A stretch of DNA of 64,000 nucleotides from Rariglobus hedericola. Lineage in GTDB: Bacteria > Verrucomicrobiota > Verrucomicrobiia > Opitutales > Opitutaceae. The notes below the pieces were generated by a model. That model saw nothing but the letters and a program-made list of their open reading frames with translations, was not told the origin of the DNA and ran no database searches. Positions 27,830 to 46,870 of the stretch are shown here, piece by piece. The DNA lies in assembly GCF_007559335.1 (NCBI RefSeq), contig NZ_VMBG01000002.1, positions 372,001-436,000 on the forward strand, in the 5' to 3' direction. Each line of letters starts with the position of its first letter. The first letter of the stretch is position 1. A program made the position numbers and the translations under genes.

Positions 27830-29608
27830 TCAGTCCGCGCGCAGCATGCGCTTGGCGGATTCGTAGGCACTGCGCAGCACCGAGCGATCCATGGTCTGAT
27901 AGTTCTCCGGTAGAAAACGACGGTCGGAACACGCGAGCACGGCGGCGGCCTCTTGCAAAGCGAGCAGGTTTTCATCGAGCGGATCGATGAACGCGTCCAC
28001 GGCGGTTTGCAGGTCTTCGAGTTCGAGGGTGTCGTCTCGTTTGGCGAGCACGGCGCGTTCGCGGGCGCGCACGAGGACGGCTTCGACATCGCTGCCGGTG
28101 AGCGGACGGCCGCCGAGTTTTTCGCGGATGTAGGCGAGGAGAGGTTCGGCCAGCGCGAGTTTCTGGCTGCGTGCGATCACGCTGAAGAGCTCGACGATCT
28201 CGTCGGGGTTTTGCGCGGGGAAGAGCGGCACGCAGAGGCCGAAGCGGCCCTGGCGCTTGAGGTCGATGGCCATCAAGTCGGGGCGCGAAGTCATGGCGAT
28301 CCACAGCTCGCGTCCGCGGAGGGAGGAATCGCCGAGGTGCGCGGCGAAGGCGGCGAACACGCGGCTCGACACGCCGCTGTCTCCATCGGCGCTGCGGTTG
28401 CCGAAGACGGCGTCGGCTTCGTCCACGACGACAATCACGGGCCCCAGTGCGCGGATGGTGAGGAGAATGCGTGCCTGCTGGCGCTCGGTTTCGCCGACCC
28501 ATTTGGAGCGGAACTGGCCGAGCTCGAGGACGGGGAGTCCGCATTCGCTGGCGAAGCAATCGATGAGGTAGGACTTGCCGACGCCGATGCGGCCGGGGAC
28601 GAGCACGCCGCGTTCGAGCACGGCGTGTTTGCCCTCGCGGATGAGCCAGGCGAGTTCGCGCAGACGGGTTTTGGCGGCGACGTGGGTGGCGACGTCGTCG
28701 AGGGAGCGGCCGACCTTGGGGTCTTTGAATTTAACGAGGTCGCCGCAGTAATCTTCAATGAGGGTGCGTTTGCCGGCGCTGACGTAGGAGGCGGTGATGC
28801 GCTGGTCGTTGCGCAGGGCGGTGGCGAGGAGTTGCTCGATGCGCAGGAGCGGGAGGCCGGAGGTGCGGCGCGCGAGGTCGTCGGTGGGGAGATCGCTTTG
28901 GGCGGCGAGGGTTTTGCCGTCGGTGTGGCGGTCGAGCCAGCCGGAGCCGAGGAAGGCGGCGCGCTCGTCGAGGACAGGCAGATCGATGCGCACGCGGGCG
29001 ACGTGCGGATTTTGCAGAAGGTCCCCGTGAAGTTCGGAGATCGTCTCGGTGACGAGGATCACGCCGACATCGCCGTGGTGCAGTTCGGGCGAGGCGGCCC
29101 AGGAGAGCAAGGTGACGAGGGCGACGCGTTCGTCGTGGGCGGCCTGGTTTTCCTCGGAGGCGGGGACGAGTTTTTCGGCAAAGTTGACGACGAGGGTGAC
29201 ACCGCGGTTCTCGCCGGTTTCCTCGGCCATGCGCAGGAAGAAACGCCGGAGAACCGGTAGCAGGTGAACGAATACACGCGGTGGTCCGTCGCGGTGGAAG
29301 GTGGTGTTCTCGACCTCGTCGTAGATTTTAAGCCACTCGAAGAAACGGGTCTGCATCGCGGGCGTGGCGAAGGTGAGGCCGGCGCCGAGATCGTAATGGA
29401 GCAGGTGGGCGCGGGTGGGGAAGAGACGCTGCGAGAGATACGGACCGAGGGCGGCGTAGGTGGGTTTGGGCGCGGCGGCGACGGGGAAGAGATCGTGGAT
29501 GTTGCCGTGGAGTAGAAAAAGACTGTGGGCGCCGCTATTCCAGAGGCGGGCAAGTTCGGTGGCCCAAGTGGGGAGTGCGGCGCGGTGGGAGATCGGGCTG
29601 GCGGACAT
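27830..29608 (-). CDS. AAA+ ATPase with unusual N-terminal region
   Basis: 592 residues. The C-terminal half is a classical AAA module: Walker A GRIGVGKSY, Walker B VIVVVDEADAVFG, sensor-1 region WIAMTSRPDLM, arginine-finger region LKRQGRFGLC, and a helical lid rich in acidic residues (LTGSDVEAVLVRARERAVLA). The N-terminal ~300 residues (LWNSGAHSLFLLHGNIHDLF; VILVTETISELHGDLLQNPH) look like a second, degenerate P-loop-type domain: HGNIHD sits where a Walker A would be but lacks GKS. It is cytoplasmic. It is last in a minus-strand unit with PspA-like, VWA and SBP-OmpA genes, so it probably remodels that complex, as PspF- or Vps4-type AAA proteins act on PspA/ESCRT-like partners. That role is inference. 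Confidence 0.8.
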   Translation of the reverse strand: MSASPISHRAALPTWATELARLWNSGAHSLFLLHGNIHDLFPVAAAPKPTYAALGPYLSQRLFPTRAHLLHYDLGAGLTFATPAMQTRFFEWLKIYDEVENTTFHRDGPPRVFVHLLPVLRRFFLRMAEETGENRGVTLVVNFAEKLVPASEENQAAHDERVALVTLLSWAASPELHHGDVGVILVTETISELHGDLLQNPHVARVRIDLPVLDERAAFLGSGWLDRHTDGKTLAAQSDLPTDDLARRTSGLPLLRIEQLLATALRNDQRITASYVSAGKRTLIEDYCGDLVKFKDPKVGRSLDDVATHVAAKTRLRELAWLIREGKHAVLERGVLVPGRIGVGKSYLIDCFASECGLPVLELGQFRSKWVGETERQQARILLTIRALGPVIVVVDEADAVFGNRSADGDSGVSSRVFAAFAAHLGDSSLRGRELWIAMTSRPDLMAIDLKRQGRFGLCVPLFPAQNPDEIVELFSVIARSQKLALAEPLLAYIREKLGGRPLTGSDVEAVLVRARERAVLAKRDDTLELEDLQTAVDAFIDPLDENLLALQEAAAVLACSDRRFLPENYQTMDRSVLRSAYESAKRMLRAD

Positions 29609-29683
29609 GGTATGGAAAGGGGCGATGAGCTTGGAGCGGGTTGCGGGTGTGTGCTCTTAAAACAATAATGTAGGTCCAGCGGC

Positions 29684-30106
29684 TTACGGTTTGCTCCTCC
29701 AAGTGTGGAGGCACGATTGACAGGATTTTTTAGAACCATGCGTTGATTTCCAAATCATCCAGCCCAAAGCAGGCAGCATCAGCAGTGGCAGCGAGAACAA
29801 CACGATCCAGACGAACGGTTCGTCCGGGTAGCTGATTTTTCGCGTTCCGCAGCGTGGGCACTGAGACAAAGAGTCGGCGTCGTCAGGATCTTCGAACGCT
29901 TCATCGTCGGTCGCATTGAAATCCAAACCGAGGACCCGTTGCGCCTCCTTAAGATCATCGTATTCGACAAAGATAGCATACTTGGAGTCGCTCGCACGAT
30001 TTCCGTTGGAAAGATACCTCAGCTTGGCTGGCACATTTGCGGCGATCAGAGCTGCCATGCGTTCTTCCGCGGATTCTTGGGTTAATCCCGTAAGCAGATG
30101 TGGCAT
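29684..30106 (-). CDS. DUF2007-like protein with split zinc ribbon around membrane segment
   Basis: 140 residues. Residues 1-70 resemble the DUF2007/putative signal-transducing fold (LTGLTQESAEERMAALIAAN, YAIFVEYDDLKEAQRVLGLD). A Cys pair then occurs in CPRCGTRKISYP, followed by one hydrophobic stretch (FVWIVLFSLPLLMLPALGWM) and a second Cys pair in KKSCQSCLHTW. The two CxxC pairs could form one zinc ribbon only if the membrane segment hairpins. Function unknown. It sits between the coiled-coil gene and the AAA gene, 39 and 75 bases away, on the same strand. Confidence 0.7.
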   Translation of the reverse strand: MPHLLTGLTQESAEERMAALIAANVPAKLRYLSNGNRASDSKYAIFVEYDDLKEAQRVLGLDFNATDDEAFEDPDDADSLSQCPRCGTRKISYPDEPFVWIVLFSLPLLMLPALGWMIWKSTHGSKKSCQSCLHTWRSKP

Positions 30107-30120
30107 GTGAAGGGCTGGGG

Positions 30121-30149
30121 ATCGGAGCGCGAGCGAGCTCGCGGCCTAC
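30121..30149 (-). repeat. GTAG-footed hairpin (REP-like element 2)
   Basis: On the minus strand GTAG (30149-30146) is followed by GCCGCGAGC and GCTCGCGCTC arms; the core CGCGAGC/GCTCGCG is a perfect seven-base palindrome with two bases between. The TAG of the foot is the stop codon of the coiled-coil membrane protein. Confidence 0.4.
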
Positions 30150-31066
30150 GATGAGAGGGGTGGTTCGGGCTGGCGGGTGGCGGTGGCGGACGGAGTGACC
30201 ATCGCGCCGGCGGGGAGGGCGGGGAGTTGGCCGGTGAGGTCTTTGAATTCGGAGAGCTCGGAGAGCCAGCGGTTGGTTTCGGCGAGGTGTTCGATGCTGA
30301 TGTCGATACGCGCGCCGAGGGACTCGGCGTTTTTGTGGGCGACGGCGTCGGCTCGGATGAGCTTGGCCTGTTCGACGAGGCGCTCTTGTTCGGACAAAGC
30401 GAGATCGAGGTTGGCGCGAGCTTGCGCGATGCGGGCGATGCGCTGGCGGAGGGCGTCGAGACGATCGCGACGCGAGGCGAGGAGCTTGCGACGGGTTTCG
30501 AGCGAAGGGCTGGCGGGCGAGGCGGCGATCTCGGCTTCGAGCGCAGAGATTTCGCGGGCGGCGGCTTCCTCGGCTTGAGGGAGTTGTTCGCGGCGTTCGG
30601 TTTCGAGGTAAACTTCGAGGGACTGCTCGATGGTTTGCAGGCGCAGGTAAGTCCAGAGGAGTTCGTCGAGTTTGCGCAGGCGGGTATCGAGCGAGAGAGT
30701 GAGATCGCCGGAGGAGTTTTCGGCGGATGCGGCGGTGATGTCTTTGCAGACGGCGACGAGCGACTGGTGATGGCGGCGGCGTTCGGCGGAAAGGGAAGCG
30801 AGGAGCTGGGTGCGCTGGGCTTCGAACGCGCGTTCGCGTTCGGAGGAGGCGGCGTTGTCGGCAGCGAGGCGTCGGGCGTCGATTTTTTTGCGGAAGCGGG
30901 CGGAGTCGGGCAGATAGACGTGACCGAGAGCGTAGAGCACGCCGCCCACCAGCAGGCCGAGGGGCTCGCCGGTGGCGAACCCCAGGCCGAGCGTGAGCAC
31001 GGCGAGCCAGAGATGGTCGCGGCTCTTCCAGAAGAGCCGGCGGTAGTTGGGCGGAGTGTCGGTCAA
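30146..31066 (-). CDS. Membrane-anchored coiled-coil protein
   Basis: 306 residues. Two short membrane stretches lie near the N-terminus (HLWLAVLTLGLGFATG and PLGLLVGGVLYALGHVYL), followed by about 200 residues of charged coiled coil rich in Ala/Arg/Glu/Leu (LEAEIAASP, RLDALRQRIARIAQARANLD, LSEQERLVEQAKL). The C-terminal tail is Pro/Thr-rich. No named family recognised. The start is 15 bases from the SBP-OmpA stop, so it is almost certainly co-transcribed. The coiled coil is a plausible partner for the PspA-like protein in the same unit. Confidence 0.75.
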   Translation of the reverse strand: MTDTPPNYRRLFWKSRDHLWLAVLTLGLGFATGEPLGLLVGGVLYALGHVYLPDSARFRKKIDARRLAADNAASSERERAFEAQRTQLLASLSAERRRHHQSLVAVCKDITAASAENSSGDLTLSLDTRLRKLDELLWTYLRLQTIEQSLEVYLETERREQLPQAEEAAAREISALEAEIAASPASPSLETRRKLLASRRDRLDALRQRIARIAQARANLDLALSEQERLVEQAKLIRADAVAHKNAESLGARIDISIEHLAETNRWLSELSEFKDLTGQLPALPAGAMVTPSATATRQPEPPLSS

Positions 31067-31081
31067 GGGCGTTGGCCAAGT

Positions 31082-32731
31082 TTACTCGACGGTGAACCAC
31101 TGGACCTCGACGCGGCGATTCTTCTCGGCGTCGGTGCCGGAGGGCTCTTCCCAGCCGCGACCGATGGTTTCGAGGCGGGTGGGGGTGACGGCGAGCTTCT
31201 CGATCAACACGCGGCGGATTTCGTTGGCCCGGAGCTTGGAGAGTTCCATCGCCTTGAGAGACATCTGGCGGACGAAAGCGTCGCCGCCCTGCTGGCGGAA
31301 TTTTTCAACCAAGGCGTTGTCCACGTGACCGCGCAGCAGGATGGTCGAACCGGGGCTGACCTGGAGGAGCCGGCGGATGGAGTCGAGGTTGGCCATGTTC
31401 TCCATGTTACCCATTTCGAGATTGGACGAATTGGGCTGGAAGAGGAACCGGATGTCTTTCGTGAGGAGCGGATCGCCCTCGAGCGCGCCGGCGGCGGAGC
31501 TGCGGATGGGCGAGATGGAAATCTGCTGGCCGGCGAAGGCGCCGGAGGCCTTGAGAGCAGTCAGGTAGGAGACATCCATGTAGCGCTCGGCATCGGTCGG
31601 CTGGTCAATGAGCGAACCGTAGGCGAGGAGGGCGGAGGAGAAGATGCCGCTGAAGCTGCCGGCGGAATCGATGGAGCCGGAGAAGAAGGCGAGATTCTCG
31701 GGAAGGTTGGAGAGATGGACTTTGGTTAACTCGTCGCGGGCGTCTTCTTTGCTCCATTTGAAGGCGCGGGCGATAGTGTCGAGGTGGGCGGCGGGTTGGT
31801 CGCGCACGAGGCGGTTGCCCTCGAGCGTGCCTTCGACGAGACCGGCGACGATCTTGGGATTGGCTTGGGCGAAGCCTTTGTTGAGGACAAGAATGTCGGC
31901 GATAATCAGGAGATTCTTGTTGGTGGTGAGGAGCGTGGCCGCGCCGGCGCTGGCGTCGACGACCTCGGTGGTCTTCGGGGCCCAAGTGATGCAACCGGCG
32001 AGAAGTTTACCGCCGTCCTTCAGGTCTTTGAGGAAGAGATCACCGGCGGCGAAGGCGTCTTCGGCGAAGAGCAAGTTGACCTTTTCGGGATCGGGACGAT
32101 CGGTGGGGGACTTGAGGAGGTTCACGCCGATGCCGGCCTCTTGAGTAAGATAGCGGATGAAGAAATCGGCTTCGGTGAACTGGGCGGTGACGAGGGTCTT
32201 GCCCTTGAGGTCGTTGATGCGGCGGATCTCTTTGCGGACGACGAGACCGTCGGCGCCACGGGAGAAACCGATCTGCACGGGAGCAGTGACGGCGAAGTTG
32301 CGGCAATGGGCGGTGATCACATCGACGGTGGTGGCGGAGGCGGCGATGCGACCTGTGTTGAGCGCGGGCCAGCTCTCTTCCTCGCTGAGTTTGATGCGCA
32401 CCTTGAAGCCGTGCTTCTTGAAGAAGAAGGAGTTTTCGGACGGCTCGAGACCGCCGTTGGCAACGATGATGCCGGCGTAGCCCGCGTATTCGCTGAGTTC
32501 GAGGTCAACGGTGTTGTCCTTGAGGATGTAGGCGGCGGCGGGAGGGAGAATCGGGCACGTGTCGAGGGCGGCGACAAACTCGGCTTCGTCAATGTTGGTG
32601 GCGGCGGCGGGTGAGGCGTTAGCCGCCGCGGACGAAGCGGAGGGGATGAGTTTATCCCACCACTTGTAGGTGCCGAGGCCGGCGATGCAGAGGATGAGGA
32701 TGGTGAAGACTAGTTTGCCGCGAAGGGTCAT
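31082..32731 (-). CDS. Solute-binding-protein/OmpA fusion, membrane anchored
   Basis: 549 residues. An N-terminal helix (LVFTILILCIAGLGTYKWW) acts as an anchor or uncleaved signal. Residues about 55-390 look like a type-2 periplasmic binding protein of the NMT1/SsuA group: VDLELSEYAGYAGIIVANGG, FFFKKHGFKVRIKL, DLKGKTLVTAQFTEADFFIR and GVNLLKSP. Residues about 430-549 are an OmpA-type peptidoglycan-binding domain (LTKDIRFLFQPNSSNL, ILLRGHVDNA, LKAMELSKLRANEIRRVLIE, ETIGRGWEEP, KNRRVEVQW); the expected Asp and Arg ligands for meso-diaminopimelate appear in this block. There is no ABC permease or ATPase gene nearby, so it is probably a ligand sensor or cell-wall-linked scaffold rather than a transporter part. 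Confidence 0.85.
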   Translation of the reverse strand: MTLRGKLVFTILILCIAGLGTYKWWDKLIPSASSAAANASPAAATNIDEAEFVAALDTCPILPPAAAYILKDNTVDLELSEYAGYAGIIVANGGLEPSENSFFFKKHGFKVRIKLSEEESWPALNTGRIAASATTVDVITAHCRNFAVTAPVQIGFSRGADGLVVRKEIRRINDLKGKTLVTAQFTEADFFIRYLTQEAGIGVNLLKSPTDRPDPEKVNLLFAEDAFAAGDLFLKDLKDGGKLLAGCITWAPKTTEVVDASAGAATLLTTNKNLLIIADILVLNKGFAQANPKIVAGLVEGTLEGNRLVRDQPAAHLDTIARAFKWSKEDARDELTKVHLSNLPENLAFFSGSIDSAGSFSGIFSSALLAYGSLIDQPTDAERYMDVSYLTALKASGAFAGQQISISPIRSSAAGALEGDPLLTKDIRFLFQPNSSNLEMGNMENMANLDSIRRLLQVSPGSTILLRGHVDNALVEKFRQQGGDAFVRQMSLKAMELSKLRANEIRRVLIEKLAVTPTRLETIGRGWEEPSGTDAEKNRRVEVQWFTVE

Positions 32732-32781
32732 GGGAGGGAGAGGCGGAGGAAAAGGAGTAGGGTGAGAATGAGAACGAGGCG

Positions 32782-32827
32782 GGGGAGCGGCCGCGAAAAC
32801 GGATCAGTCGCTGGCGCTCCCCGCTAC
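32782..32827 (-). repeat. GTAG-footed hairpin (REP-like element 3)
   Basis: On the minus strand GTAG (32827-32824) precedes an inverted repeat with eight-base arms GGGGAGCG/CGCTCCCC (32822-32815 and 32789-32782) and a 25-base inner region. It lies in the 108-base gap between the PspA-like and SBP-OmpA genes, the largest gap in this unit, and might modulate how far transcription continues. Confidence 0.4.
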
Positions 32828-32839
32828 GAAGCGGACGAA

Positions 32840-33589
32840 TCAGGATTCAGCGATTTTCTGGCGGGCGGGGGCTTCTGCTTGCGGTGTGGTGGCCTGGGGC
32901 TGGGCCATGCCCATCTTCTGCTGGTATTCTTTGAAGAGAAGGGAGCCGCGGGCGCGTTTCATCTCTTGCTGGCGCTGGATGGAGGAGCCCATTTCCTTGG
33001 CGAGGTCGAGGGTGGCGCGCATCTGGCCTTCGCCGCCGGCGGCGGACTGGCGGAGTTGCTGCATGGATTGGCCCATTTCGTCGCCCATCATGCCCTGGAG
33101 TTCGCCGATGGAACCCTTCATGAGGCCGGCGAGCTGCTCGAGGTTGCGCCCGACGGCGACCTTGACCTTCACGGTTTCGAACTCGCGCTGGAACTTTTGG
33201 ATTTCACGCAGGCTGTTGGCGATGATCTGGGTGTTCTGCTGGTAGAGGTCTTCGAGGCTGGTGAGCTGTGATTTGTTTTCTGCGAGATCGTGATCGAGCG
33301 CGGCGAGTTCCTCGGCGTAGTGGATGCCGTTGACCTCGTCGTTGGAAGCGGCGGCGGCTTGAAGGAAGCCTTGGGTGTCGGTGCGCTGGCGTTCCTGGCG
33401 CTTGATCTGGTCTTTGAGGAGGGCGATCTGGCCGGCGAGTTGTCCGTTGGCGTAGTGGGCCTTGTCGGCTTTGGCCTTGGCATCGCGGATGCCGCGTTCG
33501 ACAACGGCTTGGTTGATGGCGTCGGTTTCGGTGGCTTTTTCAGCGGCGAGACCGAGCCAGATAAAGAGACGTTTGAAGGCGCGAAACAT
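32840..33589 (-). CDS. PspA/IM30-family-like coiled-coil protein
   Basis: 249 residues, almost wholly alpha-helical. The N-terminus MFRAFKRLFIWLGLAAEKAT is an amphipathic helix of the kind PspA uses to bind membranes. Long coiled-coil helices follow (KADKAHYANGQLAGQIALLK, EFETVKVKVAVGRNLEQLAG), then a Met/Gln/Gly-rich segment and an Ala/Pro/Gln tail. The length and hairpin pattern fit the PspA/Vipp1 (ESCRT-III-like) superfamily, but sequence identity to a classical PspA is not evident to me, so the call rests on architecture. It is cytoplasmic and membrane-peripheral, and a likely target of the AAA+ protein in the unit. Confidence 0.65.
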   Translation of the reverse strand: MFRAFKRLFIWLGLAAEKATETDAINQAVVERGIRDAKAKADKAHYANGQLAGQIALLKDQIKRQERQRTDTQGFLQAAAASNDEVNGIHYAEELAALDHDLAENKSQLTSLEDLYQQNTQIIANSLREIQKFQREFETVKVKVAVGRNLEQLAGLMKGSIGELQGMMGDEMGQSMQQLRQSAAGGEGQMRATLDLAKEMGSSIQRQQEMKRARGSLLFKEYQQKMGMAQPQATTPQAEAPARQKIAES

Positions 33590-33642
33590 AGTGGTGTGGT
33601 GTTGAGGGCTGGCGGATTAAAGGTGAGGAGAGGCGGCTGAGC

Positions 33643-34362
33643 TTAGGGCGCTTCGACGAGAATCTGGTTTTCGAGAATAAAATCGAGCTGGCTTTGCAGT
33701 TGTTTTTCATCGGCGGCTCCGATGAGGGTGGCGCCGGCTTTCTGAAGTGAGGCAAAAACCTCGGGCGGGATGTCGAGGGCGATGATGTGGACGAAAATCG
33801 GCTGATCCTGGCCGTTGGTTTGTTTCTCCAGTGCCTTGAGGGCGGCCAGGGGCGTGGAGCCCGTGGTATTTTCACCATCGGTGATGACGAGGAGATGTTT
33901 GCTGGCGGCGGGAGTGACTTGCAGGACCCGGCCCGCGGCCAGCATGGCGTCACCCAGCGGGGTGCCGCTGTCCGGCGCGGGAAGAGCTGCGAGCCAGCTG
34001 CGGGCGGCGTCGGCTTGAAATGGACCGAGCGGCAGCGCCATGCGGGTGCGGACGCCGTCGAAGATGACGACGCCGAGATCAAGGCGTTTGGCGGGTTGAC
34101 CGGCCGAGGGCTGGGTGAAGCGTTCGAGGCGGTCGATCACGAGCCCGAACGCGCGCTTGGCGATGACGTGCTTGGCGGCGAGACGACCGTCCTGTGCCCG
34201 AATGGGAGTCTTCATGCTGCCGGAGGTGTCGTAAACAACGGCGAGGGCGACATCGGCGGGCGTAGCTGCCTGGGCGGCAGCCGAAATAAACGCGGTGAAG
34301 ATTATCAAGAATCGTGCGCCTTGAAGCAGACGGCGCCGACACGGGGAGTTGGAGGTGGACAC
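33643..34362 (-). CDS. VWA-domain protein with signal anchor
   Basis: 239 residues. An N-terminal signal or anchor (RFLIIFTAFISAAAQAATPA) precedes a von Willebrand A domain. The metal-ion-dependent adhesion site is present: DTSGSMKT (DxSxS), a Thr region in SGTPLGDAM and an acidic residue in ITDGENTTG. The domain therefore probably lies outside the cytoplasm and binds a protein partner through Mg2+. It is the first gene of the six-gene minus-strand unit, divergent from the Wsp-type operon across a 400-base gap. Confidence 0.85.
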   Translation of the reverse strand: MSTSNSPCRRRLLQGARFLIIFTAFISAAAQAATPADVALAVVYDTSGSMKTPIRAQDGRLAAKHVIAKRAFGLVIDRLERFTQPSAGQPAKRLDLGVVIFDGVRTRMALPLGPFQADAARSWLAALPAPDSGTPLGDAMLAAGRVLQVTPAASKHLLVITDGENTTGSTPLAALKALEKQTNGQDQPIFVHIIALDIPPEVFASLQKAGATLIGAADEKQLQSQLDFILENQILVEAP

Positions 34363-34762
34363 GGCGGATGTTGTAGCAGCTCCGTGCGTTGCATGAAATT
34401 ATAATTACAGGCGGGTTTTCGTCCTTCGTGGAAAAAGCGCACAAAGCCCCGCCCGTTTTTGAGGATGTAATCGGGGCGGATGTAGTTGATTATTTGATAC
34501 GAATTTCCTGGGCGGTTTTGCGGCTGTTGCCATGGTGTTGCCGAAGTCGTCCTGCCAACCAACCAAAAGGATCAAAACGTGGAGTGAAGAGGTGTTTCCC
34601 GACGGATGGAGGGGCTATGCACGGGTTTCCCTGTGCGCGGCCGTCTGGGTGGGTTACCTCAGATGGGGTGTTTGCCTTTGACCCTACAGGGTGTTTGGCC
34701 GAGTGAATAAGGTGCTGGAGCACCCTCTTTTTGGTCCGGGCACAAGCCCAACACTCACACAC
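34363..34762. other. 400-base divergent intergenic region
   Basis: This lies between the VWA gene (minus) and the Wsp-type operon (plus) and should hold both promoters. The left part (34385-34520) is AT-richer than its surroundings and may be the promoter region, but I cannot pick -35/-10 boxes with confidence. The right part (34600-34670) carries two hairpins described separately. I see no supportable gene in it. Confidence 0.5.
34619..34666 (+). other. Two consecutive hairpins upstream of the Wsp-type operon
   Basis: Hairpin one pairs GCACGGG (34619-34625) with CCC-T-GTGC (34629-34636), one bulged T. Hairpin two pairs CCGTCTGGGT (34641-34650) with ACC-T-CAGATGG (34656-34666), again with a bulged T at the same relative place. 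They lie about 100-140 bases before the wspA-like start and could be a leader RNA element. They do not match the GEMM c-di-GMP aptamer core. Confidence 0.35.
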
Positions 34763-36499
34763 ATGATTTGGTCCATCGGTAAAAAAATCCTGCTCGGTTA
34801 TCTGCTCGCCTTGCTGTTGCTGGCGTTGATCGGAGTCGGCGCGTTTCTCGGCGTGCGGGAGTTGTTGTCGGCCGCGGCCATCCGGACTCACACCTATCAG
34901 GTCATCGGCCAGATCGAGCAGATCGAACTGGAGATCGTGAATGCCGAGACGAGCCAGCGCGGCTATGTGTTATCCGGACAAGAAACGTATCTGGAGCCTT
35001 ACAAAGTGGCGGTCGGACAAGTCTCCGCCTCCATCGCGAAACTGGCCGAGCTCACCAAGGATAATCCCGAGCAACAGGCCCGCATCGCCCGCTTGGAAGT
35101 GCTCGCGGATGATAAAATGAAGGTGCTCGCCGAATCGATTTCCTTGCGTCGCAACGACGGCATGGACGCGGCCATGGCGCTTTTCCTGAAAGGCACCGGG
35201 AAGCAGATCATGGACAAAGTGCGCGCGCTCTCCGCCGAGCTGCGCAACACCGAGCTGGAGTTGCTGGCGGTGCGTTCGCTGCGCGCCGAAGCGGATGCGC
35301 GCCGTGTGAATTTAATCATCCTCGCGGGCACGCCGATTGCCGGCGTCATTTTATTGATCGTCGGACTGCTGGTGGCGCGCGGTATCGCCCGTCCTCTGGC
35401 CAGGATTACGCATGCCGCCGAGCAGATCGCATCGGGTGATCCGACGGTCGAATTGTCGTCCGCCGCCGGCCGCAGTGACGAGGTCGGTCAGCTCTCGCGC
35501 AGCTTTACGCGCATGGGCAAGGTGCTCGCCGAGGTCGCCGCCGTGAACACGCGCATCGCCCAGGGTGATCTCAGCGTGACCGTCACGCCGCAGTCCGCCT
35601 CCGATAAATTTGGCAACGCGCACCATCAGATGATCGATAAATTATCCCAGCTGGTCGGCGCCGTGCAGCGCGCCGGTTTGCAGGTCAACACCTCCGCCAC
35701 GGAGATCGCGGCGACTTCGAAACAGCAGCAGGCCACCGCGACGGAAATCGCCGCGACCACGACCGAGATCGGCGCCACGTCGCGTGAGATTTCCGCCACC
35801 TCGAAGGAACTCGTGCGCACCGTCAGCGAGGTCAACCGCGTGGCCGAGGAAACCGCGCAACTGGCCGGCAACGGCCAGAGCGGACTCGGTCGGATGGAAG
35901 GAACCATGCGCAACATCATGGACGCCTCGGGCACGATCTCTGGAAAGCTCGCGGTGCTGAATGAGAAAGCCACCAACATCAACGCGGTCGTCACCACGAT
36001 CACCAAGGTCGCCGACCAGACGAACCTGCTCTCGCTCAACGCCGCGATTGAAGCCGAGAAAGCCGGCGAATACGGCCTGGGCTTCGCGGTAGTTGCCACG
36101 GAAATACGCCGTCTCGCCGACCAGACCGCGGTCGCCACCTATGACATCGAACAGATGGTGAAGGAAATGCAGTCGGCGGTTTCGGCCGGCGTGATGGGCA
36201 TGGATAAATTCTCCGAAGAGGTGCGGCGCGGTGTGGATGAAGTGCGCCAGGTCGGCGCGCAACTCACGCAGATCATCCAGCAGGTGCAGGCCCTGACGCC
36301 GCGTTTCGAGGCGGTCAACGAAGGCATGCAATCGCAGTCCACCGGTGCGCAGCAGATCACCGAGGCGCTTTTGCAGCTCAGTGAATCGGCGCAGCAAACG
36401 GCGGAATCCCTGCGCAGTTCCAGCATCGCAATCGGGCATCTCAACGAGGCGGCCCGCGACCTCCAAAACGGCGTCGCCCGCTTCAAGCTTCGCGGCTGA
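34763..36499 (+). CDS. wspA: WspA-like methyl-accepting chemotaxis protein
   Basis: 578 residues from [15 protein letters not shown]. Topology: helix 1 ([18 protein letters not shown]), a periplasmic four-helix sensor with a CHASE3-like core ([19 protein letters not shown]), helix 2 ([15 protein letters not shown]), then a HAMP domain ([20 protein letters not shown]). The rest is a long cytoplasmic signalling helix, with tip [19 protein letters not shown] followed by [17 protein letters not shown]. First gene of an operon with the exact gene order of the Pseudomonas Wsp surface-sensing system. A role as membrane sensor feeding the CheA-like kinase follows from that order; the stimulus is unproven. 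Confidence 0.9.
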
Positions 36500-36523
36500 A
36501 CCAGGTTCCCGCCGCAACTTCCC

Positions 36524-36985
36524 GTGTCGCTTTTCCTTCAATTCGAGATTGGCGGCCACCGCTACTTGCTTGAGGCGAAGTGCGTGGCGGCGGTGCTGCC
36601 GATGCCGGAACTCAAGCCGGTGCCGGGCTCGCCGGAAGGCGTCGCCGGAGTGGCTAATTACCAAGGCGCGCCGGTGCCCGTGATCGATCTGTCGGCGCTC
36701 GCGACCGGTCGCGCGGCGGCCAATCGTCTGAGCACGCGGCTCGTGCTGGTGCGTTATCCGGCGGCGGATGGTGAAAAGCTGCTCGGGCTCGTCGCGGAAC
36801 GGGCGACGAGTGTGCTGCACGCCGACGACGCGGCGTTCACATCGGCGGGAGTCGAGGCGGCGCCCTGGCTGGGCGGGGTCACACCGGCGGCGGGTTCGCT
36901 GGCGCAACGGATCGAGATCGGGGCGTTGTTGCCGCCTGATTTGCGCGCGGTGCTTTTTCAGGCGGTCGAGGAGGAACGGGTATGA
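36524..36985 (+). CDS. wspB: CheW-like adaptor (WspB position)
   Basis: 153 residues from a GTG. CheW fold: SLFLQFEIGGHRYLLEAKCV, VAGVANYQGAPVPVIDLSAL and LVLVRYPAADGEKLLGLVAE. It couples the chemoreceptor to the CheA-type kinase. It ends within the start of the CheR gene (ATGA overlap), which supports translational coupling. A second CheW-like gene lies two genes on, matching the WspB/WspD pair of Wsp systems. Confidence 0.88.
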   Translation: MSLFLQFEIGGHRYLLEAKCVAAVLPMPELKPVPGSPEGVAGVANYQGAPVPVIDLSALATGRAAANRLSTRLVLVRYPAADGEKLLGLVAERATSVLHADDAAFTSAGVEAAPWLGGVTPAAGSLAQRIEIGALLPPDLRAVLFQAVEEERV

Positions 36986-38211
36986 ATGAGTCCGACATCG
37001 TGCCGCTTGAAAATTACCTGCGCGACACCATCGGGCTGGCGAGCGATTCGATCGGCCGCGGGCTGGTCATGCGCGTGGCGCAACGTTGCATGAGCGCGGC
37101 CGGCGCGCACACCGTGGCGGAGTATGTGGTGCGGTTGCGCAATGACAGCCGGCTGCGGCAGGTGTTGATCGAAGAACTGGTGGTTTCGGAGACGTGGTTT
37201 TTTCGAGACCGGCAGCCGTTTGAATTACTGGCGCGGCTGGCGTTGGACCGGTCACGTGCACGTCCGCTGCGCGTGCTGAGCATGCCGTGCTCGACCGGTG
37301 AAGAACCTTATTCGATCGCGATGAAGTTGCTGGGCGCGGGGCTGGCATCCGATGCATTCCATATCGACGCGGTGGATATCAGCGAAGGCGCGCTGGCGGT
37401 GGCGAAGCACGCCAGCTACGGCTCGAATGCGTTCCGCGGTGACGAAGGCCGCGCGCGCGATATGTGGTTCACGCCGGCGGGGGCGCGCTGGTATCTGGAT
37501 GAACGCGTGTCGTCGCAGGTGAAATTCCATCACGGCAATCTGTTCACCTTCGCGCCCGAGGTGCGTTACGATTTTATTTTCTGCCGCAACCTGCTGATTT
37601 ATTTTGATGCGCCGATGCAGGGCACGGCGGTCCGGCTTTTGCAGGACCTGTTGGTGGATGATGGGGTTTTGTTCGTGGGGCACGCGGAGGCGGCGGTGCT
37701 GTTGCGCGAAGGCCTCGTGTCCTGGCCGGAGTTGCGGTCGTTTGCGTTTACACGACGGGCGGATCGGCCGGTGAAAGCGAAAGCCGTCTCCACGGCGCAG
37801 GCGCATTCCCGCGTGCGTGCGCCGTCGTTGCCGAAAGAACGGCTGCCGTTTTCGGATGTGGTGCGGCGAACGGAGCGGACGTTTACGGTTCAGACGGAGG
37901 ATGCATCGCTGGCGGAGATCCAGTCGATGGCCGACGCCGGACGAGTCGATGAAGCGGCGCTGCTCGCGAAGGCGCATCTGGCGACGCATGAACCCTCGGC
38001 GGAAGCGTTTTATCTGCTCGGGATCATCCATGACGCACGCGGCGATGCGGGTGGAGCGGAGGCGGCTTACCGGAAAACACTTTATCTGAATCCGAAGCAT
38101 GACGGGGCGATCACGCATCTGATCTTGTTGCTGGATAAACGGAGCGATCCCGAGGCGTTGAGACTGAGGCAACGGGCGCGGCGTCCGTCGGGCCGGGGAG
38201 GTAACGCATGA
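36982..38211 (+). CDS. wspC: CheR-type receptor methyltransferase with TPR tail (WspC position)
   Basis: 409 residues. The CheR N-terminal helical domain is followed by the SAM-binding catalytic domain: SETWFFRDRQPFE, the motif-I loop VLSMPCSTGEEPYSIAM, VDISEGALAVAK and YDFIFCRNLLIYFDAPMQ. After a Pro/basic linker the C-terminal ~90 residues form TPR units (EAFYLLGIIHDARGDAGGAE, AAYRKTLYLNPKHDGAITHL). WspC proteins also carry C-terminal TPRs. It uses S-adenosylmethionine to methylate receptor glutamates and so tunes adaptation. Four-base overlaps link it to both neighbours. Confidence 0.92.
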   Translation: MNESDIVPLENYLRDTIGLASDSIGRGLVMRVAQRCMSAAGAHTVAEYVVRLRNDSRLRQVLIEELVVSETWFFRDRQPFELLARLALDRSRARPLRVLSMPCSTGEEPYSIAMKLLGAGLASDAFHIDAVDISEGALAVAKHASYGSNAFRGDEGRARDMWFTPAGARWYLDERVSSQVKFHHGNLFTFAPEVRYDFIFCRNLLIYFDAPMQGTAVRLLQDLLVDDGVLFVGHAEAAVLLREGLVSWPELRSFAFTRRADRPVKAKAVSTAQAHSRVRAPSLPKERLPFSDVVRRTERTFTVQTEDASLAEIQSMADAGRVDEAALLAKAHLATHEPSAEAFYLLGIIHDARGDAGGAEAAYRKTLYLNPKHDGAITHLILLLDKRSDPEALRLRQRARRPSGRGGNA

Positions 38212-38798
38212 GCGAAGAGAGTCCCTCCACGCCGCCGAACGGCGGCGGCATGCGTCGTCGTGTGGTTGATCCTGAAGTTGGTGCGCGGCTGCTGGATCGT
38301 GAGCCGCCTCCGGGTTACCGCGCGGAGTGGACGGCGTATCTGTCGAAGCCTCCGAAGAAGGCCGAGGTCACGACGGATTCGGCGCTGGTGTTTCGCGTCG
38401 GCGCAGAGTGGCTCGCCCTGCCGGCGAGCTGGGTGGGGGAAGTCGCGCCGGTGCGTGCGGTGCATTCGGTGCCGCACCGGCGCGGACGTGCGTTGGAAGG
38501 ATTGGTGAACGTGCGCGGCGAATTGCTGCCGTGTTTCTCATTGGACGGATTGCTGGGCATCGATGCCGCGGACGGAGTCACCGGTTCACGACGCCTCGTC
38601 GTGGCGGGACAAGGCGCGCGGCGGCTGGTGTTTCGGGCCGACGAAGTCTTTGGCGTGATCCGTTATGACGCGGCGCGCAGTCTGCCATCGCCCGGACGCC
38701 TGCGGCATGTGAAGCACCTGCTGGAGTGGAAAGGCCGCACGCCGGGGCTGCTCGATGCGGAGAGCGTATGGAACGCACTCGAAAGGAGTCTCGCATGA
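38208..38798 (+). CDS. wspD: Second CheW-like adaptor (WspD position)
   Basis: 196 residues. A ~60-residue N-terminal extension (RRRVVDPEVGARLLDREPPP, EWTAYLSKPPKKAE) precedes a CheW domain: LVFRVGAEWLALPASWVGEV, HSVPHRRGRALEGLVNVRGE, LLPCFSLDGLL and RLVFRADEVFGV. The extension with LLDR and W-A-Y-L is also seen in WspD-type proteins. It overlaps the CheR stop and the CheA start by four bases each. Confidence 0.88.
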   Translation: MSEESPSTPPNGGGMRRRVVDPEVGARLLDREPPPGYRAEWTAYLSKPPKKAEVTTDSALVFRVGAEWLALPASWVGEVAPVRAVHSVPHRRGRALEGLVNVRGELLPCFSLDGLLGIDAADGVTGSRRLVVAGQGARRLVFRADEVFGVIRYDAARSLPSPGRLRHVKHLLEWKGRTPGLLDAESVWNALERSLA

Positions 38799-41029
38799 GC
38801 GACGACTTGAGTAATTTTTCGTTGATCGAGCTCTTCAAGCTCGAAGCCGAAGGGCAGATCGCGCTGCTCACGCGGCATCTGCTGGCGCTCGAGCAAGGTC
38901 CGGCCGGGCCTGAAGTGCTGGAGGCGATGATGCGCGCGGCGCATTCGTTGAAAGGTGCGGCGCGTATCGTGGGGCTCACGCCGGCGGTGCAGGTTGCGCA
39001 CGTGATGGAGGATTGTTTTGTGGCGGCCCAGCAGGATCGTGCGCGACTGGGACGTGCGGAGGTTGACGCGCTGTTGCAAGGCGTGGACTGGCTCGCGCAA
39101 TTGTCGCGGCTCAACGAGGCCGACGTGGAAAGCTGGACCACGGCGCATGCGGATCAACTCGACGCATATGTGAGGGAATTAGCGGGGTCGAAGACGCCTG
39201 TCGTGAACGCGGCGCCGCCCGTGCCGGTGGCGGCCCACGATGTTCCCAAGGCGGCGACGGTGGAGCCCGAGCCGATGGACCGGGTGTTGCGGGTGACCGC
39301 GGAAAAACTCAACCGCTTGCTCGGCCTGGCTGGCGAATCGCTGGTGGAGTCGCGCCGCTTGCAACCGTTCAACCGCAGCCTGCTTCGCCTCAAACGCGTG
39401 CAACAGGAACTCGGTCGATCGATTGACCGGTTGCGCGAGGTGCTGGGTGATGAGGCGGGTGAACGCGTGGGTGGCTATCTGCGCGAAGTGCAGTCGCGCG
39501 CGGCGGAGAGCCGGGAGCTGCTCCAGGTTCGCATGGAAGAGATGGACCGCTTTGACCGCGCGGCGACGCAACTCTCCGGACGACTTTATCGTGAGGCGCA
39601 GGCCGTGCGCATGAGGCCGTTTGCCGATGGCGTGGCGGCGTTTCCGCGGATGGTGCGCGATCTCTCACATCAATTGGGCAAGGACGCGCGGCTGACGATT
39701 GCGGGTGAACAAACCCAGGTTGATCGTGACGTGCTCGAAAAAATCGAGGCGCCGCTGACGCACCTTTTGCGCAATGCGGTCGATCACGGATTAGAGACGG
39801 CTGAGACACGCATCAACACGGGCAAATCCGCGTGCGGTGAACTGCGGCTCGAGGCGCGTCACCGTGCGGGCATGCTGATCGTTACGGTATCCGACGACGG
39901 GCGCGGTGTGGATATCGAAGCTGTGCGGGCGGCAGTCGTGCGCAAAAAACTCACGACTGCGGAAGTGGCGTCAAAACTCTCCGCACAGGAAGTGCTCGAT
40001 TTTCTTTTTCTCCCTGGGTTTTCACTAAAAACCGAAGTCACCGAAATTTCCGGACGAGGCGTGGGACTCGACGTGGTGCAGTCGATGCTCAAGGCGCTGC
40101 GCGGCACGGTGCGCATCCACACGCAGTCCGGCCACGGCACGACGTTTGAGCTTCATCTGCCGGTGACGCTTTCGGTGGTGCGGGCGTTGCTCGTGGAAAT
40201 CGCAGGTGAACCGTATGCGCTGCCGCTGGCCTCGGTCGCGCGGGTGTTGCGCGTGGAACGTGCGCAGATCGAGACGGCGGAGGGACGTCCGCATTTTGCC
40301 TTCGACGGCGGGCGGGCGGCGCTGGTGTCTGCGCGCGAAGTGCTGGAGCTCGACGAGGCGGGTGCGGGCGGCGACAGCTGGTGCGTGGTGGTGCTCGGCG
40401 ACAAAGGCGCGCGGCACGGACTGGTGGTGGATAAATTTCTCGGCGAACGGGAGCTGGTGGTGCAGCCGCTCGATCCGCGTCTGGGCAAGGTCGAGGACAT
40501 CGCGGCGGCGGCCGTGCTCGAAGACGGTGCACCCGCGCTGATTCTCGATGTGCAAGACCTGCGCCGCTCCATGGGCCGGCTCACCAGTGAAGGCGCGGCC
40601 GGACGCTGGTCGCGTGCGAAGGCGGCGAGCGCGGATGTGCGCCGGCAGCGCGTGCTGGTGGTTGATGATTCGCTTACGGTGCGCGAGTTGGAGCGCAAAC
40701 TTCTCGTCTCGCGCGGCTATGACGTGACGGTGGCGGTTGACGGCATGGAAGGCTGGAATGCGGCTCGCACGGGCGACTTCGACCTGGTGATCACGGATGT
40801 CGACATGCCGCGCCTGGACGGCATCGAATTGGTGAAACTCATGAAGGCCGACGATCGTCTGCGGACGCGGCCGGTGATGATTGTTTCTTACAAAGATCGT
40901 GAGGAAGACCGGCGTCGTGGCCTTGATGCAGGCGCGGATTATTATCTGACGAAGGGCAGTTTTCACGACGAGAGTTTGCTGGACGCGGTGGTCGATCTGA
41001 TCGGTCCCGTGGGGGAGGCGGGCGCATGA
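38795..41029 (+). CDS. wspE: CheA-type hybrid histidine kinase with C-terminal receiver (WspE position)
   Basis: 744 residues from the ATG overlapping the previous stop. Hpt domain with phospho-His at residue 50 (RAAHSLKGAARIVGL), no P2 domain, dimerisation region (RVTAEKLNRLLGLAGESLVE), HATPase (HLLRNAVDHGLETAETRI; DDGRGVD; GRGVGLDVVQSML), and a CheW-like domain. The terminal receiver (VLVVDDSLTVRELERKLL; Asp in VITDVDMPRLDG; TKGSF near the end) completes the WspE arrangement. It phosphorylates its own receiver, the CheB-type methylesterase and, by analogy, the WspR-type receiver encoded downstream. Confidence 0.93.
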   Translation: MSDDLSNFSLIELFKLEAEGQIALLTRHLLALEQGPAGPEVLEAMMRAAHSLKGAARIVGLTPAVQVAHVMEDCFVAAQQDRARLGRAEVDALLQGVDWLAQLSRLNEADVESWTTAHADQLDAYVRELAGSKTPVVNAAPPVPVAAHDVPKAATVEPEPMDRVLRVTAEKLNRLLGLAGESLVESRRLQPFNRSLLRLKRVQQELGRSIDRLREVLGDEAGERVGGYLREVQSRAAESRELLQVRMEEMDRFDRAATQLSGRLYREAQAVRMRPFADGVAAFPRMVRDLSHQLGKDARLTIAGEQTQVDRDVLEKIEAPLTHLLRNAVDHGLETAETRINTGKSACGELRLEARHRAGMLIVTVSDDGRGVDIEAVRAAVVRKKLTTAEVASKLSAQEVLDFLFLPGFSLKTEVTEISGRGVGLDVVQSMLKALRGTVRIHTQSGHGTTFELHLPVTLSVVRALLVEIAGEPYALPLASVARVLRVERAQIETAEGRPHFAFDGGRAALVSAREVLELDEAGAGGDSWCVVVLGDKGARHGLVVDKFLGERELVVQPLDPRLGKVEDIAAAAVLEDGAPALILDVQDLRRSMGRLTSEGAAGRWSRAKAASADVRRQRVLVVDDSLTVRELERKLLVSRGYDVTVAVDGMEGWNAARTGDFDLVITDVDMPRLDGIELVKLMKADDRLRTRPVMIVSYKDREEDRRRGLDAGADYYLTKGSFHDESLLDAVVDLIGPVGEAGA

Positions 41030-42069
41030 GAATCGCGATCGTCAACGACATGCCGCTGGCGGTGGAAGCGATGCGTCGCGTGCTGGCGACCGAGAAGCGG
41101 CACTCGCTCAGCTGGACGGCACGGGACGGCGCCGAGGCGGTGGAGAAATGCGCGGCCGACACGCCCGATCTCATCCTGATGGATTTGATCATGCCGGTGA
41201 TGGACGGCGTGGAGGCGACGCGGCGCATCATGTCCGAGACCCCCTGTGCCATCCTCGTGGTGACGGCTACGGTCGAGGGCAACGCCACGCGCGTTTACGA
41301 AGCACTCGGCGCCGGGGCGCTCGATGCCGTGGAGACGCCCGCGTTTGGGAAAGGATCCGGATTTCTTCTGGTGAAGCTCGATCTGCTCGAGCGCCAGATC
41401 ATGGGCCGGCAGTCGACTTCACCTTTGTTTTCGGCGGCGGCGATGGAGAAAAAAGTCGAGACTCCGGCGGATGGTGCGCAAGCGGCGGACTGGCTGGTGG
41501 CGATCGGGGCCTCCGCGGGTGGTCCGGCTGCGCTGGCCAAAGTGCTGGCGGGGCTGCCGGCGGATTTTCCCGGGGCGATTGTGATCGTGCAGCATATCGA
41601 CACAGCGTTTGCGGCGGGGTTGATCTCGTGGCTGGACAGCCAGTGTGCGTTGAAAGTCGTGGCGGCAGGCGACGGTGTGTATCCATTGCCCGGGCACGTG
41701 TATGTCGCCAGCGGCGACCGGCATGCGGTGATCAGCCCCTCCGGACTGCTGGTGCAAACCGATGAACCACGAGGATGCATCTATTTGCCGAGCATAGACG
41801 TTTTTCTCACCAGCATGGCATCCAACTGGAAAAAAGCAGGAACCGGGCTTCTCCTCACGGGTATGGGTCGTGACGGTGCGGCCGGTTTGCTACGCCTGCG
41901 CCAGGCGGGTTTTTTCACGATCACGCAGGATCGGGAGAGCTCCGCCGTGTATGGGATGCCCAAAGCAGCCGCCGAACTGAATGCGGCATCACAGGTGCTT
42001 TCTCTGCAGTCCATTTCCGGTCAGTTGCGACAACTCGCGCTTGATAAAACCAAATTGAAGCGCCGCTAA
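41026..42069 (+). CDS. wspF: CheB-type protein-glutamate methylesterase (WspF position)
   Basis: 347 residues overlapping the CheA stop by four bases. Receiver at residues 1-120 with phospho-acceptor Asp53 (LILMDLIMPVMDG). After a linker the methylesterase domain has the catalytic triad in GASAGGPAAL (Ser), IVIVQHID (His) and GMGRDGAAGLLRLRQAG (Asp). It removes methyl groups from the receptor and resets the array. In Pseudomonas, loss of WspF locks the system on. It is the sixth gene of the unit; the next starts 15 bases later. Confidence 0.93.
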   Translation: MRIAIVNDMPLAVEAMRRVLATEKRHSLSWTARDGAEAVEKCAADTPDLILMDLIMPVMDGVEATRRIMSETPCAILVVTATVEGNATRVYEALGAGALDAVETPAFGKGSGFLLVKLDLLERQIMGRQSTSPLFSAAAMEKKVETPADGAQAADWLVAIGASAGGPAALAKVLAGLPADFPGAIVIVQHIDTAFAAGLISWLDSQCALKVVAAGDGVYPLPGHVYVASGDRHAVISPSGLLVQTDEPRGCIYLPSIDVFLTSMASNWKKAGTGLLLTGMGRDGAAGLLRLRQAGFFTITQDRESSAVYGMPKAAAELNAASQVLSLQSISGQLRQLALDKTKLKRR

Positions 42070-42084
42070 GTTACCCGATTTTTT

Positions 42085-44196
42085 ATGTCCGACATTTCCT
42101 ACAGGCCGAACGCAGCCTCTTATCATTCGATGGTATTGCTCGTGGACGATCAGGCCATCGTGGCCGAGGCGGTGCGGCGCAGTCTGGCTGGCAACTCCGA
42201 CATCGATTTCCATTATTGCGCCGATCCGTTGCAGGCACAGGCGGTGGCGGCGCAGATCAAGCCGTCGGTGATCCTGCTGGATCTGGTGATGCCCGGCATG
42301 GACGGACTGGAGTTGGTGCGCCGGTTCCGGGCGACGCCGGCGACTGCGGAAATCCCGATCATTGTGCTGTCGGTGAAGGAAGACCCGCAGGTGAAGAGCC
42401 AGGCCTTCGAGGCGGGCGCGACCGATTATCTGGTCAAGCTGCCTGACAAGATCGAGCTCGTGGCCCGCGTGCGCGTGCATGCGAAGGCGTGGATCAACCA
42501 ACAGCAGCGCGACGAGGCCTACCGTGCGTTGCGCGAGAGCCAGCAGCGACTGGTGGACGGCAACACGGCGTTGATCGCGTTGAACCAAAAACTGGCCGAG
42601 GCGACGCAGGCGAAGTCGGAATTTCTCGCCAACATGAGCCATGAAATCCGCACGCCGATGAACGGCGTGATCGGCATGACCTCGTTGTTGCGCGAGACGC
42701 CGCTTGATCCCGAGCAGCGTGATTATGTGGAGACGATCCGGTCCTCGGGCGACGCCCTGCTGACGATCATCAACGACATCCTGGATTTTTCGAAGATCGA
42801 ATCGGGCAAGCTGCAACTGGAGCACCGTCCGTTTCTGCTGGAGAAAGTCGTGTCGGATGCGCTTGAGCTGCTGCAACCCAAGGCGGCCGAGAAAAATCTG
42901 GATCTGGCGGTGCACATGGATGCGTCGCTGCCCGACCTGGTGATCGGCGATGTCACGCGGCTGCGCCAGATCCTGGTGAATCTCGCGGGCAACTCGCTCA
43001 AGTTCACGTCGCACGGCGAAGTGATTATCGACGTGGTTCCGGTGTCCGGACCGCATCCGTCATTCCGCGACAGCTTTGCCGCCGAGGAAGGTGCCTACGT
43101 GCAGTTCAACGTGCGCGACACGGGCATCGGTATTCCCGCGGAAAAACAAGACCGGCTGTTCAAGTCGTTCACGCAGGTGGACAGCTCGACGACGCGCCAT
43201 TACGGCGGCACGGGTCTTGGGCTGGCGATCTGCAAACGGCTCGTGGAGCTGATGGGCGGGCTCATCTGGGTGGAGAGCGAGCCGGGCAAAGGCTCGACCT
43301 TCAGCTTCACGCTGTTGTTGCAACCTGCGGTGCTGGCGGAACCGCCGCGTTGGCGCGGACAGCAGCCCGCATTTGAGGGCAAGCGCCTCCTGATCATCGA
43401 GGACAATGCGACGTTGCGTTCGCTGTTCACGACGAAGGCGGCGTATTGGAGTATCACATCGACGGGTGTGGCTTCGCTGGCGGAGGCCGATGCGGTGCTG
43501 GGCGGCGCGTCGAAGCCTGATGCTGTGTTGCTGGATCGCGAACTGCCGCGGGAGGACGTGCCGGCCTGGATCGCCGCTTTGCGTGCGAAGCCCGAGACGA
43601 GCGCGCTGCCGGTGCTGTTGTATTCAAATTTACGGGGACGCACGGGGCAGTTGCCCGAGGCGTTGCGGGCCGGCGTGGAGCAGCTGCAAAAACCGCTGCG
43701 CCGCCAGGACCTGTTCGATGCCTTTCACCAAGTCTTCACGGGGAGTGCGCTGCCGGCCGCGCGCACGGTGGCGATGGGGCGTTTTGACGAACGGATGGCC
43801 ACGCGCCTGCCGTTGCGACTGCTGCTGGCCGATGACAACGCGGTGAATCAGAAGGTGGGCGCGGCATTGCTGCGCAAACTCGGTTACAGCACCGATGTCG
43901 TGGCTGATGGCAGCCAGGTGATTGCGGCGCTCGAGAAGACGGATTATGATCTGGTGCTGCTCGATGTGCAGATGCCAGAGATGGACGGTTACGAGGCGGC
44001 GAGGGCGATTTGTGCGCGGGCTTCGGAGACCGGCTGGGCGCGTCCGCGGATGGTCGCCATGACCGGCAACGCGATGCAGGGTGACCGGGAAAAGTGCCTT
44101 GAGGCGGGCATGGATGATTACATCACCAAGCCGGTGCGTATCGAAGATCTGGTTACAGCTCTGGAGAAATGGGGTCCGGCTCCCGAGGCGAAGTGA
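42085..44196 (+). CDS. Hybrid kinase with WspR-like N-terminal receiver: REC-HisKA-HATPase-REC-REC
   Basis: 703 residues. The first ~165 residues resemble the receiver and linker of the WspR diguanylate cyclase: [20 protein letters not shown], phospho-acceptor Asp66 in [30 protein letters not shown], then [17 protein letters not shown]. Where WspR would continue into GGDEF, this protein has HisKA (His186 in [15 protein letters not shown]), HATPase ([28 protein letters not shown]), a weak receiver ([14 protein letters not shown]; Asp in [12 protein letters not shown]) and a canonical receiver ([32 protein letters not shown]). It is the last gene of the Wsp-type operon and its likely output: array-driven control of a phosphorelay rather than c-di-GMP synthesis. 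That function is inference from domains and position. Confidence 0.93.
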
Positions 44197-46750: not shown

Positions 46751-46870
46751 GAAAACGAAGGTGAATGAAACAGAGGTGCGGGCGACAGGCGCAAGCACGC
46801 CGTTTGCCACACACTGGCGGCAGCCCAAATGAATTGAGCCTGAACGATCGGGGACAATTCAGGGACATGA

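Follow-up and report, generated by a model that had tools for sequence, protein, structure and literature searches.

Five genes of Rariglobus hedericola, encoding a VWA protein, a PspA-like protein, a substrate-binding protein joined to an OmpA domain (SBP-OmpA), a membrane coiled coil (CC) and an AAA+ ATPase, are, as judged by gene content and sequence, a transporter-less variant of an operon class already described by Ravi et al. (PMC11237479). Our best reading, which we favour with modest confidence, is that this module encodes an ESCRT-III/Vps4-like ATPase that would remodel PspA and would be coupled to a periplasmic sensor of cell wall and ligand. All the support for the function of the module is comparative. 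New here are the recurrence of the VWA gene, a large clade of SBP-OmpA proteins without a cognate ABC transporter, and a PspA tail motif that tracks AAA-bearing genomes.

A five-gene module and its probable passenger

The window, a 64-kb stretch (64,000 nucleotides; G000:C2:372001-436000) of the 4.15 Mb host genome G000, contains six minus-strand open reading frames in a row, which we confirmed and which are separated by intergenic gaps of 15–108 bp. With the flanks included, the gaps along the row are 3, 75, 39, 15, 108, 53 and 328 bp, and the row lies between a convergent hybrid histidine kinase gene (ending at 27826) and a divergent chemoreceptor gene (starting at 34691). From the upstream end, the six genes are:

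33643..34362, minus strand: VWA protein, 239 aa, GTG start; signal peptide and one VWA domain with an intact MIDAS; predicted periplasmic.
32840..33589, minus strand: probable divergent member of the PspA/Vipp1/ESCRT-III superfamily, 249 aa (evidence from orthologues that pass PF04012, a profile and a model); disordered linker and C-terminal RQKIAES.
31082..32731, minus strand: SBP-OmpA, 549 aa; N-terminal TM anchor, NMT1/SsuA-type substrate-binding domain and C-terminal OmpA peptidoglycan-binding domain.
30146..31066, minus strand: membrane coiled coil (CC), 306 aa, TTG start; TM hairpin at ~16–54 and long helices predicted to be cytoplasmic.
29684..30106, minus strand: zinc-ribbon protein with one TM segment, 140 aa; probable passenger, outside the module.
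27830..29608, minus strand: AAA+ ATPase, 592 aa; degenerate N-terminal AAA-like half (~1–297) and active classical AAA half (~300–592).

A promoter scan found no sigma-70-like site. Beside the module lies a plus-strand chemosensory cluster (window 34691-44196) that encodes a CHASE3 chemoreceptor, CheW, CheR, a CheA-REC hybrid, CheB and a hybrid histidine kinase, followed on the minus strand (44204-46828) by a gene for a protein with a circularly permuted ATP-grasp and an Alpha-E domain.

The earlier note on this DNA had described a six-gene module. All six genes exist; by comparison with related loci, however, the module is five genes, and the zinc-ribbon gene is probably an insertion or passenger between the CC and AAA genes, its GC3 being 0.59 compared to 0.73–0.82 for the other five and no copy being found in any of the related loci. 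The only relative among 56 related genomes, at 42% identity, lies ~1.9 Mb from the operon of that genome. The zinc-ribbon protein itself has a small N-terminal domain followed by a hydrophobic stretch that is flanked by two CxxC pairs, with a weak LITAF-like match.

The VWA protein has a weak Pfam score (6.8e-5, under the cut-off), and in an alignment of 14 relatives its MIDAS residues D45, S47, S49, T134 and D162 show little or no variation. Because it carries a signal peptide and its relatives in L042, L048 and L063 have a lipobox, it is predicted to work outside the cytoplasm. The model of CC has an N-terminal TM hairpin and a coiled coil (pLDDT 85) and the protein matches no known family in Pfam; basic residues flank the hairpin, so the helices should lie in the cytoplasm. 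We also considered CC as a Snf7/PspA paralogue and do not favour this, since profile comparison, a PDB sequence search and a fold search all gave nothing. Matches to BAR domains were under significance (E 0.24 or worse).

Linkage across genomes and the missing transporter

A scan of GTDB contigs found relatives of SBP-OmpA at 45 loci in Verrucomicrobiota, Planctomycetota, Acidobacteriota, Lentisphaerota and two MAGs labelled Gammaproteobacteria, the nearest named relatives being Opitutaceae MAGs. PspA is encoded near SBP-OmpA in 34 loci, CC in 23, AAA in 21 and VWA in 18, in a set to which loci from nearby genomes were added and which holds some duplicates and many short contigs. Many of these loci are on short MAG contigs of uncertain taxonomy, and neither the two Gammaproteobacteria labels nor an Akkermansia label should be trusted unchecked. 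The core genes are linked in Opitutaceae and their relatives and recur in Verrucomicrobiota, Planctomycetota and Acidobacteriota. Going by these neighbourhoods, VWA is a recurrent component of the operon class; the main text of PMC11237479 does not mention it, and our literature search found no VWA-PspA-AAA system in Verrucomicrobia.

Twenty genomes have no AAA gene beside SBP-OmpA, and 15 of them encode a full-length AAA orthologue elsewhere (at least 563 bits, compared to at most 127 for the next match). There the AAA gene mostly lies with CC in Pedosphaera-type genomes, in which PspA is with SBP-OmpA, or with PspA in Phycisphaerales-type genomes. The remaining five have SBP-OmpA without AAA, so SBP-OmpA can evidently work otherwise. 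A phylum sample of 289 genomes gave AAA (full-length, >500 bits) in 11, SBP-OmpA in 11, CC in 8 and PspA in 13. All four occur together in the same 8 genomes, CC is found only there, and AAA always occurs with PspA; pairwise Fisher tests, which ignore kinship, give p values from 2e-10 to 3e-18. Because three genomes (G300, G303 and G306) have PspA and AAA alone of the core set, and because AAA is never found without PspA, these two are the innermost pair. The search for conserved co-occurrence that the earlier note had called for thus found the genes linked in relatives, or split within the same genome, rather than scattered.

The substrate-binding domain of SBP-OmpA is of the NMT1/SsuA type in Pfam, and the OmpA domain to which it is joined carries, as read from the sequence, the Asp of a GHVDN motif and the Arg of an LSKxRA motif. 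In OmpA proteins, this Asp and this Arg hold peptidoglycan. In three other verrucomicrobial families (L114, L115 and L116), the gene order is VWA, PspA, SBP-OmpA, BPD permease, ABC ATPase, CC and AAA, and the window has this order minus both transporter genes. By gene content these operons are the published class (PMC11237479) with VWA added.

One reading of this arrangement, which we consider unlikely, is a system for solute uptake or ligand handling in which SBP-OmpA and VWA would form the functional core, as in relatives with a linked transporter, PspA, AAA and CC would assemble or protect a transport complex, and the window clade would use an unlinked permease. The SsuA/NMT1 type of the SBP would fit this, as would the cognate permease and ATPase inside the L114-L116 operons and those close by in L068 and L069; a link to solute transport was indeed proposed by Ravi et al. 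(PMC11237479). However, the cognate permease is missing from the window lineage. It scores 438-612 bits in the three carriers, compared to 88 bits (31% identity) for the best match in G000, which is unlinked, and the lineage has only generic permeases, at ~31% identity or less, elsewhere in the genome. The SBP-OmpA tree has a 100/100 split between 8 transporter-type sequences and 44 others that include the window protein, with the root not fixed, and the neighbourhoods of the remaining SBP-OmpA genes of the 44-sequence clade yielded no cognate permease. Despite this, SBP-OmpA remains strongly conserved alongside PspA, CC and AAA. Because SBPs of this type are transporter subunits, we infer loss of the transporter rather than gain, on a tree whose root is not fixed. 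The absence of the transporter suggests that the SBP was retained for something other than uptake.

Four Planctomycete-type loci have one or two coiled-coil proteins of ~250 aa encoded directly upstream of a transporter-less SBP-OmpA (L044 1539-3118; L050 5885-7442 and 9127-9912; L058 8377-9887; L061 2-748). These proteins have a TM anchor or a lipobox and belong to no Pfam family. PspA, CC and AAA were not found nearby in these neighbourhoods, and the coiled coils are predicted to be an alternative, periplasmic partner of SBP-OmpA. A divergent PspA, CC or VWA identity for the cluster-3 proteins of the Planctomycete loci was rejected, since no profile matched. In Opitutaceae nzgw617, a rhomboid protease gene (L062 2277-2849) lies between AAA and SBP-OmpA, and SBP-OmpA is split by an in-frame stop.

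A PspA-like protein with a conserved tail and its candidate ATPase

The 249-aa protein itself has no Pfam match, and the whole genome has no match to PF04012. The cut-off of this family, 33.9 bits, is exceeded by orthologues that occupy the corresponding place in the operons of Opitutaceae VE3, Holophagales, Planctomycetota and a MAG with a Gammaproteobacteria label (L057 56.7, L043 37.0, L069 36.7 and L070 34.8). For a 22-member profile, the best PDB sequences are Vipp1 and PspA, aligned from residue 1 or 2 to ~188 (E 0.004–0.17). The AlphaFold model has a helical hairpin (2–81 and 85–155) and a later helix (189–225), with a block of pLDDT 72–95 over residues 31–140 and low confidence in the C-terminal third. 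Nine of its ten best Foldseek matches are Vipp1 structures (top PDB 6zvr), with E-values of 0.0066 or weaker, which are modest because the fold is a two-helix coiled coil; E. coli PspA (4whe) superimposes at 1.4 Å over 116 columns. Taken together, the Pfam matches of the orthologues, the profile and the fold make it likely that the protein belongs to the PspA/Vipp1/ESCRT-III superfamily, as the earlier note had supposed; that note had named a fold unlike PspA as evidence to the contrary, and the model instead resembles PspA and Vipp1.

This membership could also suit a classical Psp response to envelope stress whose partners are unusual, in which PspA would mainly regulate transcription or buffer proton leak and the AAA protein would be a regulator. 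We regard this as improbable, since the genome has no PspC and no other PF04012 member, the operon has no PspB or PspF, and the AAA protein has no DNA-binding domain in Pfam.

The PspAs of the module end in an Ala/Pro/Ser-rich linker of low confidence followed by a short motif (QKIAE, PKLGE, EIGP, DLGP or TMGP). In contrast, the canonical PspAs found in Verrucomicrobiota without AAA have other C-terminal ends, most often ELAALK-like helices. In the phylum sample, the tail pattern, defined as [ILM][AGSD][PEQ] within the last 15 residues, is present in 6/6 PspAs from AAA-bearing genomes and in 3/34 from AAA-less ones (Fisher 2e-5, ignoring kinship). The motif was first noticed in the operon set, and the pattern was widened once the TMGP tails in the sample were known, which means that the test is not independent; the pattern is also permissive and the PspAs of AAA-bearing genomes are kin to one another, so that the p-values overstate the case. 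The correlation persists where the PspA and AAA genes are unlinked, as would be expected if the tail recruits AAA.

At a Planctomycete locus (L069 6186-11566), a 579-aa ORF has the PspA domain at its C terminus, and the permease is preceded by two SBP-OmpA genes in tandem. At G273:C3:15615-18377, a PspA_IM30 gene adjoins a more distant AAA (219 bits, profile positions 103–567) in the same PspA-AAA order.

The C-terminal half of the AAA protein is a classical AAA domain (PF00004), closest in sequence to CDC48/VAT and not to Vps4. Its invariant residues are Walker A G342/G344/K345, Walker B D396/E397 and the arginine fingers R452/R455. The N-terminal half has no Walker A and gives a weak match (E 0.014) to the AAA lid region of i-AAA and katanin, and hhalign found no match between it and the C-terminal half of the protein. 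A degenerate AAA N-half, for which the lid match is weak support, would be in line with the inactive N-terminal copy in the double AAA of Ravi et al. Neither a MIT domain nor a DNA-binding domain was found in the protein with Pfam. A chaperone pair in the MoxR-VWA (RavA-ViaA) style, maturing proteins of the periplasm or membrane, with PspA supporting it at the membrane, is the least probable alternative and a very doubtful one: AAA and VWA do occur together in several loci and the VWA MIDAS is strictly conserved, but the AAA is classical and CDC48-like rather than MoxR, an exported VWA cannot touch a cytoplasmic AAA, and many genomes have AAA without VWA nearby.

A proposed mechanism and comparison with known systems

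We hypothesize that the module works as a PspA-remodelling ATPase coupled to a periplasmic sensor in the following way. The PspA-like protein would assemble on the cytoplasmic side of the inner membrane via an N-terminal amphipathic helix. The double AAA, with its dead N-half and live C-half, would be recruited by the conserved tail that ends the disordered linker of PspA, and would thread or extract PspA subunits so that ATP turnover controls assembly, with the TM-hairpin coiled coil as the membrane scaffold where PspA and AAA meet. SBP-OmpA, which would hold on to peptidoglycan from its anchor in the inner membrane, might together with the secreted VWA sense a small ligand and/or wall contact, and its state may be passed inward through TM contacts, a signal route that is a guess. 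In the related operons, the ABC permease and ATPase sit between the SBP and CC; since they are gone in the window clade, the SBP there is expected to act as a receptor or tether and not in uptake. The analysis shows the gene content, linkage, co-occurrence and domain make-up, the PspA-like model, the absence of the transporter and the tail-motif correlation, while assembly, recruitment, the direction of signalling, the ligand and the physiological role are all inferred.

A more specific version, which we put forward only tentatively and think somewhat improbable, is that the PspA tail became, in evolution, a tag dedicated to recruiting a double-AAA ATPase for disassembly, under the control of VWA and of a ligand receptor that is anchored to the wall and free of a transporter. 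Such a system would be a bacterial analogue of ESCRT-III/Vps4 with which Verrucomicrobiota, Planctomycetota and Acidobacteriota would remodel membranes in a controlled way, for instance in vesiculation or to couple wall and membrane. The earlier note had likewise pictured a transenvelope device, in which a PspA-like filament lies on the membrane and an ATPase acts inside. That idea survives as our best reading, without the zinc-ribbon protein and without the novelty of the association: the note took PspA-AAA-VWA associations to be described only as genomic neighbourhoods, and PspA, double AAA and PBPB-OmpA had already been published as a conserved operon class (PMC11237479).

Among known systems, MoxR-VWA (RavA-ViaA) differs in that the AAA of the module is not MoxR-type. 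Classical Psp (PspFABC) and Vipp1/IM30 share the PspA hairpin fold, whereas the module lacks PspB, PspC and PspF and its PspA tail is unlike those of AAA-less PspAs. The operons that Ravi et al. described in 2024 from sequence alone (example OGG56892.1) comprise PspA, TM-Snf7, a double AAA+ with an inactive N-domain, an ABC transporter and PBPB-OmpA, and their ABC ATPase and permease may occur in longer operons (PMC11237479) and so are not strictly defining. They share with the module a PspA-superfamily protein, a TM-bearing coiled coil, an AAA+ with an inactive N-terminal copy and the SBP-OmpA fusion; in contrast, the window lacks both the permease and the ABC ATPase, has VWA in addition, and has a CC without detectable Snf7 homology. 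According to the same authors, how PspAs without an associated AAA ATPase regulate their assembly is unknown (PMC11237479). With a compact module and a candidate recruitment motif, it becomes directly testable whether a Vps4-like ATPase is dedicated to PspA/Vipp1 polymers in bacteria.

Like the ESCRT-III/Vps4 (Cdv) systems of archaea and eukaryotes, the module probably combines an ESCRT-III superfamily protein, with a disordered C-terminal tail and short terminal motif, and a classical AAA ATPase that is encoded in the same operon or at least in the same genome. It differs in having no MIT domain, a dead N-terminal AAA-like half, an AAA closest to CDC48, and periplasmic partners. Because MIT is absent and the AAA is CDC48-like, we do not file it as an ESCRT system; paired vps4/ESCRT-III systems are described as restricted to archaea and eukaryotes (PMC10936438). 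The same work reports Meth_adaptin archaeal ESCRT loci with a ProX-type SBP (PMC10936438). These loci are archaeal, have no OmpA fusion and have other partners (adaptin-like, SPFH), yet they offer a striking parallel, in that a periplasmic-type SBP is encoded together with an ESCRT system that includes a Vps4-type AAA.
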